From contig CABZCN010000007.1 in assembly GCA_902524245.1 (NCBI GenBank), forward strand, positions 1-61,480: 61,480 bases of DNA, given 5' to 3'. Positions 43,099 through 44,860 of the stretch are shown one piece after another. Under the pieces are notes generated by a model, which saw nothing but the letters and a program-made list of their open reading frames with translations, was not told where the DNA came from and did no database searches. This stretch comes from an uncultured Alphaproteobacteria bacterium. Its GTDB lineage: Bacteria; Pseudomonadota; Alphaproteobacteria; HIMB59. Both the position numbers and the translations under genes were made by a program. The stretch's first letter is position 1. The number at the start of each line of letters is the position of its first letter.

Positions 43099-43839
43099 AT
43101 GGCAGGACATTCAAAATTTAAAAATATTCAATATCGTAAAGGTGCTCAGGACAAAAAAAGGGCAAAACAATTTGCAAAAATAGGAAGAGAAATTCAAATA
43201 GCCGTGAAGATTGGAGGAACAGACCCAGAGTCCAATCCAAGATTGAGACTAGCAATAACAAATGCTCGAAGTGTAAATATGCCAAAGGATAATGTAGATA
43301 GAGCTATTAATAAAAATAATAATGAAGCTTCTGATTATTCAGAAGTTCGCTATGAGGGGTATGGTCCTTTTGGAACAGCTTTTATAGTTGAGGCCTTAAC
43401 AGATAATAAAAATAGAACAGCTTCAGAAATTAGATCTATTTTTTCAAAGAATGGGGGGAATTTGGGGGAGACAGGAAGTGTGAGTTTTAATTTTAATAAA
43501 GTAGGAGAAATACAAATCAAAAAAGAAATAGATGATAGTGCACTGGAGGATTTACTTGACCATGGTTTAGAGGATTACAATACAGATGACGATGTAACAT
43601 ATCTTTATTCTTCTTTTGAGGAATTAGCATCTTTTGAGAAAATACTAGTAGATAAGAAATTTGACATTGAAAGTGCAAATATTATTTGGAAGCCAAATTT
43701 AACTGTAAAAATTGAAAAAAAGGAAGATCTTGACAAGCTTATTAGATTAAATGAAGAGTTAGAGGATAACGATGATGTTCAAAATTGTTTTTCAAACCTT
43801 GATTTTGATAGCGAATTACTAGAGGTTAATAATGCCTGA
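43099..43839 (+). CDS. yebC: YebC/TACO1-family protein
   Basis: A 246-residue, three-domain protein. Starts MAGHSKFKNIQYRKGAQDKK, contains NPRLRLAITNARSVNMPKDN, GYGPFGTAFIVEALTDNKNR and the acidic final domain. The family has been described as transcription regulators and, more recently, as factors helping ribosomes through proline-rich stretches. Three bases after the ymdB-type gene, and eight overlapping with the nuclease-like gene. It is often followed by ruvCAB; here it is not. Confidence 0.95.
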   Translation: MAGHSKFKNIQYRKGAQDKKRAKQFAKIGREIQIAVKIGGTDPESNPRLRLAITNARSVNMPKDNVDRAINKNNNEASDYSEVRYEGYGPFGTAFIVEALTDNKNRTASEIRSIFSKNGGNLGETGSVSFNFNKVGEIQIKKEIDDSALEDLLDHGLEDYNTDDDVTYLYSSFEELASFEKILVDKKFDIESANIIWKPNLTVKIEKKEDLDKLIRLNEELEDNDDVQNCFSNLDFDSELLEVNNA

Positions 43840-44158
43840 TAAAGCTTGGAAAAATAGGGAAAGACTTGTTGCAAAGTTTTTTGGAGGTATGAGAAATGCC
43901 CTTAGTGGAATCAATTCAAAAGTTACTCATTCAGATGTAATTCACGATAATTTATTTATTGAGTGTAAGTTAAGAGCTAAACATACTGCTATTAAGTTAT
44001 GGGATGATACAAAATCTTTAGCAGACAAGGAAAAAAAGACCCCAGTCATTGCATTATGTGAAAAAAATAGACCTGGTTTTTGGATAATGGTACATTCAGA
44101 TGACTTTGAAAAAGTCTCAAAAGAACTTAAAAATAAAAAGATAATTGATGAAGAGTAA
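43832..44158 (+). CDS. Small PD-(D/E)XK nuclease-like protein in the usual ruvC position
   Basis: A 108-residue soluble protein. N-terminal AWKNRERLVAKFFGG helix, then RNALSG, SDVIHDNLFIECKLRAKH, PVIALCEKNRPGFWIMVHSD. The D-x(n)-ECK arrangement (Asp in SDVIHD, then IECK) with a preceding conserved Glu helix is the core of archaeal Hjc-type and phage PD-(D/E)XK resolvases, which are 110-140 residues and dimeric. It overlaps yebC by eight bases and lies three before tolQ, exactly where ruvC(AB) often occurs. A Holliday-junction resolvase role is inference. I cannot say whether ruvC exists elsewhere in the genome. Confidence 0.6.
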   Translation: MPDKAWKNRERLVAKFFGGMRNALSGINSKVTHSDVIHDNLFIECKLRAKHTAIKLWDDTKSLADKEKKTPVIALCEKNRPGFWIMVHSDDFEKVSKELKNKKIIDEE

Positions 44159-44161
44159 TTC

Positions 44162-44860
44162 ATGGAAGAAGTAGTAAACTTAGCATCCCTTGAGGGTTCA
44201 GTAGATTTCTCAATGATGGGAATGTTTCTAAAATCTGACTGGGTTGTTAAATTTGTAATCATATTGTTAGTGATTTTTTCAATCCAATCTTGGAAGACAA
44301 TCATTCAAAAAATATTGTTAATAAATAAACTCAAGAAAATATCAAAAAAATTTGAAAACCATTTTTGGTCTGGTGTATCTTTAGATGAGCTTTACAAACA
44401 AATTGACGAATTCGATCAAGAAAGTTTCTCAAATATATTTAGAAATATAATGAACGAATATGAAAAATCTCGTATTCAGAAAAATAGTATAGACTCAGCT
44501 TTCATTCAAAGACTTTATACATCCCTTGATTTAAGTATTGCTGATGAAGATACAAATTTAAATAAAGGATTGTCCTTTTTAGCTTCTTCTGGATCTGTAG
44601 CTCCTTTTATTGGATTATTTGGAACAGTTTGGGGAATTATGAATAGTTTTCAAGCAATAGCAATTGCTCAAAATACTAATCTCGCTGTGGTGGCACCTGG
44701 TATTGCAGAAGCTTTATTTGTAACTGCTTTGGGCCTCTTCGTTGCCATTCCTTCAACCGCTTATTACAACCACATAACTTCAAAAATTGATAACTATTTG
44801 TCAGAGGCTGAAAGTTTTGGGAAGGATTTAGTTAATATAATTTCACGCCAAGTTAAATAA
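44162..44860 (+). CDS. tolQ: Tol-Pal system proton channel subunit TolQ
   Basis: A 232-residue inner-membrane protein. TM1 is at about residues 24-40; a long cytoplasmic loop carries the LDLSIADEDTNLNKGLSFLA region; TM2 and TM3 (GLFGTVWGIMNSFQAIA, and APGIAEALFVTALGLFVAIPS) hold the conserved Thr and Pro residues of ExbB/TolQ. With TolR it uses the proton gradient to drive TolA and outer-membrane constriction at division. First of a five- to six-gene tol operon. Confidence 0.95.
   Translation: MEEVVNLASLEGSVDFSMMGMFLKSDWVVKFVIILLVIFSIQSWKTIIQKILLINKLKKISKKFENHFWSGVSLDELYKQIDEFDQESFSNIFRNIMNEYEKSRIQKNSIDSAFIQRLYTSLDLSIADEDTNLNKGLSFLASSGSVAPFIGLFGTVWGIMNSFQAIAIAQNTNLAVVAPGIAEALFVTALGLFVAIPSTAYYNHITSKIDNYLSEAESFGKDLVNIISRQVK

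Follow-up and report, generated by a model that had tools for sequence, protein, structure and literature searches.

A phage-type putative Holliday junction resolvase gene in the place of ruvCAB in RuvABC-less Alphaproteobacteria

Gene organization between yebC and tolQ

The window, i.e. the whole stretch of 61,480 nucleotides analysed here, belongs to the genome (1.37 Mb, 94.6% complete) of an uncultured alphaproteobacterium of the order HIMB59. On its forward strand, yebC (43099..43839; Pfam YebC) and tolQ (44162..44860; Pfam TolQ (MotA_ExbB)) form the upstream and downstream borders of a slot that is occupied by a single ORF of 108 amino acids (43832..44158, forward strand). According to the ORF, a PHROG match and a profile comparison with archaeal Hjc, it encodes an Hjc-like PD-(D/E)XK nuclease and putative Holliday junction resolvase, referred to as HJR in the following. 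The first 8 bases of HJR overlap the end of yebC, and a gap of 3 bases separates it from tolQ. The motif AGAGG (43821..43825, forward strand), located within the end of yebC and 6 bases 5' of the ATG, is by its sequence a possible ribosome-binding site of HJR. The other neighbours were assigned by Pfam to TolR and TolB and, upstream, to YmdB and a 5-FTHF cyclo-ligase. All eight scanned neighbours are cellular genes, with no phage genes among them, and the interval from yebC to tolQ of the window is free of ruv genes.

A previous sequence-only reading had proposed this 108-residue gene together with a D...ECK core and a glutamate in an N-terminal helix, and both the gene with its Pfam-named neighbours and the motif were recovered. 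In the alignment, the codons of E10 (43859..43861; the glutamate of the N-terminal helix), D35 (43934..43936; the motif aspartate) and E44-C45-K46 (43961..43969; the E-x-K motif), all on the forward strand, lie opposite E9, D33 and E46 plus K48, respectively, of Hjc from Pfu. E10, R11, R21, D35, E44 and K46 are invariant in an alignment of 28 sequences with identities down to 39–40%. The core D..H..L[FY][IV]E.K.R.K is present in 104 of 106 distinct homologues, and the other two keep D, E and K and differ after these. When the count was confined to the 99 rows beginning at the protein start (7 of the 106 were dropped), positions 10, 11, 21 and 46 (E, R, R, K) were invariant in all rows, and D35 and E44 were conserved in 98; the remaining row has a gap of 3 residues ahead of both.

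HJR was detected in 53 of the 60 genomes of the relatives set, the window's own genome included, and in all 17 of those which are at least 90% complete; the seven relatives with no HJR match are 50–87% complete. Its position is likewise constant: in all 45 genomes examined for it, yebC and tolQ flank HJR within 400 bases and share its strand; these genomes comprise 30 relatives, one more member of the genus, ten genomes of family f2 (of the window's order) and four of family f25 (of another order). The same flanks were present at 79 of 80 loci kept from 139 of a genome-contig scan, which overlap with the 45 genomes and in many cases represent the same species; the one exception possesses yebC and has no match to tolQ. 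Matches to RuvA, RuvB or RuvC did not occur at any of these HJR loci, neither in the 45 genomes nor at the kept contig loci.

Median pairwise dN/dS values (NG86, 30 genus members) were 0.044 for HJR, 0.082 for YebC and 0.021 for TolQ; they were calculated with an own script from pairs with a dS of 0.1–1.5 (287 of 435 for HJR, 308 for YebC, 276 for TolQ), which are not independent of each other. HJR is a real gene under purifying selection. It would be very surprising if it were a stray phage or prophage gene (a moron or remnant) with no cellular role in a region that had lost ruvCAB earlier. Such a gene would agree with the observation that, beyond the host groups, HJR has its closest relatives among phage genes (up to 78–83% identity), but not with its occurrence in every near-complete relative, the same place in all 45 genomes, the low dN/dS and the cellular nature of the scanned neighbours.

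The ancestral occupant of the slot

The sequence-only reading had further stated that many proteobacteria carry ruvC(AB) at this place, which agrees well with the RuvC-bearing members of the class. Among the best-scoring 30 of 353 RuvC-bearing genomes, yebC was found within 1.5 kb of flanking sequence of ruvC at 28 of 30 loci. Twelve RuvC regions were fetched; five show the complete order yebC-ruvC-ruvA-ruvB-tolQ, in five more ruvC lies beside yebC with tolQ out of reach, and two contain ruvC without yebC. Since ruvCAB is located between yebC and tolQ in RuvC-bearing alphaproteobacteria, HJR sits in the place of ruvCAB. An association of yebC and ruvC across bacteria at large is reported in PMC3403352.

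Absence of RuvABC and presence of RecG and YqgF

Neither RuvC (PF02075) nor RuvA_N (PF01330) was matched in any genome of the relatives set (0 of 60 each); of the 14 controls, 8 were positive for the first model and 10 for the second. The relatives set includes the window's own genome at 94.6% completeness and the single-contig, 99%-complete relative G029, both of which were negative for RuvC and RuvA. Of 18 genomes examined with the strict RuvB model TIGR00635, two, both RuvC-bearing controls, scored over the cut-off of the model (449–453 bits); the other 16, all RuvC-less, did not and reached at most 39 bits. The domain model RuvB_N (PF05496) matched in all 60 relatives (59 over the cut-off), yet with 20–32 bits in other AAA+ proteins, and these matches were rejected as RuvB. 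Those listed are mostly located in frames that are about 420, 540 and 815 amino acids long, which we take to be the lengths of ClpX, DnaX and Lon. An intact ruvCAB elsewhere in the genome, named in the sequence-only reading as the observation that would contradict a replacement, was therefore not detected: RuvC and RuvA were found in none of the 60 genomes, RuvB in none of the 16 RuvC-less ones tested.

Among 385 genomes sampled across the class, HJR was detected in 9, RuvC in 353 and RuvA in 345; of the genomes without a match in the RuvC and RuvA scans, 12 and 20, respectively, were identified by elimination. All nine HJR carriers are devoid of RuvC and RuvA, and RuvC is missing in 23 of the other 376 genomes (Fisher 6e-11, uncorrected for kinship); as the HJR carriers belong to only two orders, this test overstates independence.

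RecG gave a full-length best match of 582–710 bits in all 18 genomes tested, two RuvC-bearing controls included. It scored over the curated cut-off in seven of them and below it in eleven, among them the window's genome (587 of 659 bits). YqgF was found in 17 of the 18 genomes, again including both RuvC-bearing controls. YqgF was considered as a replacement of RuvABC and rejected, because its presence in the RuvC-bearing controls means that it does not explain the loss of RuvABC.

Relation of HJR to Hjc and other nuclease families

PHROG_2002, labelled 'Holliday junction resolvase', matches the window protein over residues 3–102 (E 6.7e-9) and was matched by 27 of the 28 aligned HJR members at E 0.001, the label itself being an annotation. 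The other collections do not name the protein: in Pfam only a chance-level match was obtained, no NCBIfam model matches, and RuvC (PF02075) does not match the window protein. Searches of PDB sequences for a relative of solved structure, a profile search included, yielded chance matches only and did not reach Hjc.

A direct comparison of the HJR and archaeal Hjc profiles by hhalign gave a match with P 3.6e-5 and a probability of 71.5% over 72 columns with 24% identity, in which E10/E9, R11/R10, R21/R25, D35/D33, E44/E46 and K46/K48 of HJR and Pfu Hjc are paired. In a script version, the profiles scored 31.4; 200 shuffles of the Hjc columns reached at most 18.4, 200 shuffles of HJR at most 21.7 and the reversed profile 10.2. 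YebC, used as a control against the Hjc profile, gave P 0.44. The restriction-nuclease core like that of Hjc, which had been assumed from the letters of the window, is supported by this profile match with its column-aligned catalytic residues. With archaeal Hjc (Pfu 1gef and relatives), HJR thus appears to share the E, the D, the E-x-K and two arginine residues in matching columns; it differs in that identity is only 24% over the 72 columns and in that HJR is a bacterial and phage protein known from sequence alone. Furthermore, PHROG_244 ('RusA-like') was weakly matched by 10 of the 28 HJR members, and the PDDEXK_15 profile gave P 0.04 against both HJR and Hjc. A distant tie between HJR and the PDDEXK_15 proteins via PHROG_244 is possible.

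Nucleases of the PD-(D/E)XK type with a similar size are involved in other tasks, too. HJR might accordingly have a flap-, mismatch- or restriction-type task, with RecG, YqgF and XerCD alone handling junctions after the loss of RuvABC. This explanation gains some ground from the presence of RecG in 18 of 18 and of YqgF in 17 of 18 genomes, from the missing Pfam and NCBIfam name and from the fact that the resolvase role is deduced from sequence comparison. We nevertheless regard it as unlikely: RecG and YqgF also occur in the two RuvC-bearing controls and hence are not what changed, HJR is a member of PHROG_2002 with an Hjc-like motif, and it occupies the slot of ruvCAB, where other RuvABC-less lineages have genes of other resolvase families (see below).

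Phage relatives and origin of HJR

The window protein matched 54 loci on viral contigs with up to 77% identity; searches with the f25 protein (25 viral loci) and with a wider alignment (best 80 of 102 kept) added more. Of 75 distinct viral sequences, 70 have a large terminase gene (TerL) no more than 800 bases downstream of HJR, and a portal gene was seen in 64; a small terminase gene (TerS) precedes HJR by no more than 1.5 kb in 31 of the 37 distinct sequences with enough upstream DNA (families named by PHROGs). The possibility that the viral contigs are mislabelled pieces of host DNA was rejected; none matches yebC or tilS, none of the first 54 loci matches tolQ, and most contain TerL and portal genes. 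A resolvase beside the terminase suits the trimming of branched DNA before packaging. The phage resolvases of PHROG_2002 belong to the same sequence family as HJR; the phage members precede TerL, whereas HJR has become fixed as part of a chromosomal operon in RuvABC-less bacteria.

Among named phages, the closest TerL (77%) belongs to Pelagibacter phage EXVC032P Baldr, in which a different gene precedes TerL; this gene was tried as a divergent HJR and is not HJR. The annotated phage collection contains only two records with HJR, at 41–44% identity. As a separate observation, a 330-aa protein of Bacteroides phage BS162P1 (L101 5323-6315), annotated as homing endonuclease I-HmuI, has an HJR-like domain as its C-terminal third and might be a fusion.

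The best pairs show that HJR of family f2 is closer to phage proteins (83%) than to those of f1 (76%), and f1 reaches 78% to phage. HJR of f25 shares 74% with phage, 66% with f1 and 69% with f2. In the gene tree, which is based on 100 columns, f2 is placed beside the phages L349 and L353 (99/96) and f1 apart from them (100/100), while the f25 group is weakly held (57/0). Topology tests did not reject a clade of f1 and f2 (p 0.24) and rejected a clade of f1, f2 and f25 (p 0.0077). Omission of five long branches left this outcome in place (p 0.27 and 0.0039, respectively; f2 with L349/L353 96/88), although f25 was no longer one group in the reduced tree, whose bootstrap had not settled. In the host tree, HIMB59 and f25 as sister orders obtained p 0.53, so that this tree is compatible with either relationship. 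A pull between AT-rich lineages is warned of in PMC3815206.

Within the limits of 100 columns, these trees suggest that HJR moved at least twice between phages and these bacteria and arrived in the same slot, and we infer that the direction of transfer was from phages to bacteria. A donation in the reverse direction, from a marine alphaproteobacterial lineage that held HJR first, is improbable. It would fit the near-basal position that f25 takes in the gene tree after rooting on two distant phage sequences. Against it stand the greater diversity of the phage HJR sequences, the nesting of f2 beside L349 and L353 and the finding that other phage-type families fill the slot as well.

Other occupants of the slot in RuvC-less lineages

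Altogether 32 genomes of the class-wide sample are RuvC-less. Nine of them have HJR, and among the other 23, yebC was found in 16. In family f50, a protein of 168 amino acids of the PDDEXK_15 type is encoded directly after yebC and is followed by tilS (L223 2259-2765, L224 1745-2251, L225 966-1472). Two of these three proteins were scanned and matched PF24608 (E 2.7e-22 and 2.3e-21) and PHROG_244; in the fourth f50 genome, G326, yebC was not matched. A viral relative with 67% identity adjoins SbcD- and SbcC-like genes (PHROG_100 and PHROG_77; L250 1180-4522), and the named relatives of the f50 protein are 15 records of large phages with 35–46% identity.

In four genomes of family f99, which is probably a SAR11 family, a protein of 164–165 amino acids is located between yebC and tolQ; two of the four carry one further slot gene, taken for ybgC, so that the neighbour is either ybgC or tolQ (L226 995-1492, L230 1009-1503, L232 2233-2727). 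Both scanned proteins matched PHROG_1770, labelled 'Holliday junction resolvase' (E 4.8e-36 and 4.9e-37), as did the slot protein of the single f119 genome (L235 981-1481; E 7.7e-22). Phage relatives of the f99 protein are found in epsilon15 (38%) and on the viral contig L251 (46%). That the f99 and f119 proteins are a decayed cellular RuvC is disfavoured, since their best four phage matches each scored 73–129 bits and RuvC 20–30 bits (29 of 30 RuvC rows, one having been dropped due to a stop codon).

RuvC and RuvA are absent from 18 of 18 genomes with a slot resolvase, i.e. nine slot-gene genomes of f50, f99 and f119 and the nine HJR carriers, and RuvB is absent from all 16 of these that were tested. 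The PDDEXK_15 (PF24608) and PHROG_1770 proteins thus resemble HJR as phage-type resolvase families located after yebC in RuvABC-less genomes. They differ from it in that PDDEXK_15 is a separate family, although also of the PD-(D/E)XK type, and PHROG_1770 is of the RNase-H type. From these family matches, it seems that further phage-type resolvase families have come to occupy the slot in other RuvABC-less lineages, PDDEXK_15 in one host family and PHROG_1770 in two.

No resolvase-like slot gene was recognised in the remaining 14 RuvC-less genomes; the slot has therefore not been refilled in every RuvC-less lineage. Six of them have no yebC match, and in the other eight yebC is followed by a contig end, by no ORF, or by ORFs that are unlike resolvases or unidentified (two scanned). 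In family f108, about 2 kb after yebC contain no ORF of at least 60 amino acids (L273 4538-6662 in G358; L274 5144-7300 in G269). Both genomes are devoid of RuvC and RuvA, and it looks like the ruv genes were lost there without replacement.

Proposed role of HJR

Taken together, HJR is likely a small Hjc-type PD-(D/E)XK resolvase of tailed-phage origin that took the place of the entire ruvCAB block between yebC and tolQ, the slot having been refilled by other families elsewhere. The non-homologous replacement of the resolvase that the sequence-only reading had suggested is thus supported as a sequence-level interpretation, with RuvABC gone and an Hjc-like gene in the ruv slot. We also consider it probable, with less assurance, that at least three phage resolvase families were plugged at least four times into the yebC-tol socket of streamlined alphaproteobacteria, with RuvABC lost and RecG kept in every case. 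The entries counted here are the HIMB59 order, f25, f50 and the SAR11-type family f99, with f119 perhaps apart.

RuvC acts together with RuvAB, whereas enzymes of the Hjc type need no partner to bind and cut junctions. The loss of RuvA, RuvB and RuvC at once with retention of RecG is what would be expected if a self-sufficient resolvase took over. An HJR dimer would cut four-way junctions without the RuvAB motor, and RecG would move branches and regress forks alongside it; in the phages, the same enzyme might trim branched replication products ahead of packaging. This arrangement would parallel in nature what is seen with the rus suppressor of E. coli, where a prophage resolvase together with RecG makes RuvABC dispensable. 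RusA is a phage resolvase that replaces all of RuvABC with the aid of RecG, as is proposed for HJR; it belongs to a different nuclease family, however, and rus suppression is a laboratory mutation.

RuvA and RuvB occur in all but less than 2% of sequenced bacteria, the exceptions being mostly parasites with small genomes, as stated in a section of PMC3403352. The same section describes that RecU replaces RuvC in Firmicutes and Mollicutes, where RuvAB is kept and recU lies far from ruvAB, and the replacement of ruvC by recU is cited as a known displacement in a passage of PMC4224334. Like RecU, HJR would represent a non-orthologous displacement of RuvC, but the HJR lineage is also devoid of RuvA and RuvB and has the new gene in the ruv slot. 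A 'Putative Holliday junction resolvase' is mentioned among the SAR11 core in one table line of PMC3686209. The main texts of PMC3815206 and PMC10308909 contain neither 'ruv' nor 'Holliday', and no prior report of this displacement of RuvABC was found among the open-licence papers and passages listed; an earlier report elsewhere is possible.

These are free-living ocean bacteria which lack RuvA, RuvB and RuvC and possess one small phage-type nuclease at the same place in the operon. They may therefore serve to test cleanly to what extent a branch-migration motor is required for recombination in bacteria, and several lineages are available for the study of RecG with a lone resolvase. In addition, phages would appear to have supplied a core repair enzyme, and an annotation gap is filled for a protein unnamed by Pfam and NCBIfam. 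A minor observation concerns genomes such as G076, G207, G142, G166 and G177, in which RuvC is present and RuvA_N was unmatched, which might indicate either a divergent RuvA or a partial loss of the complex.
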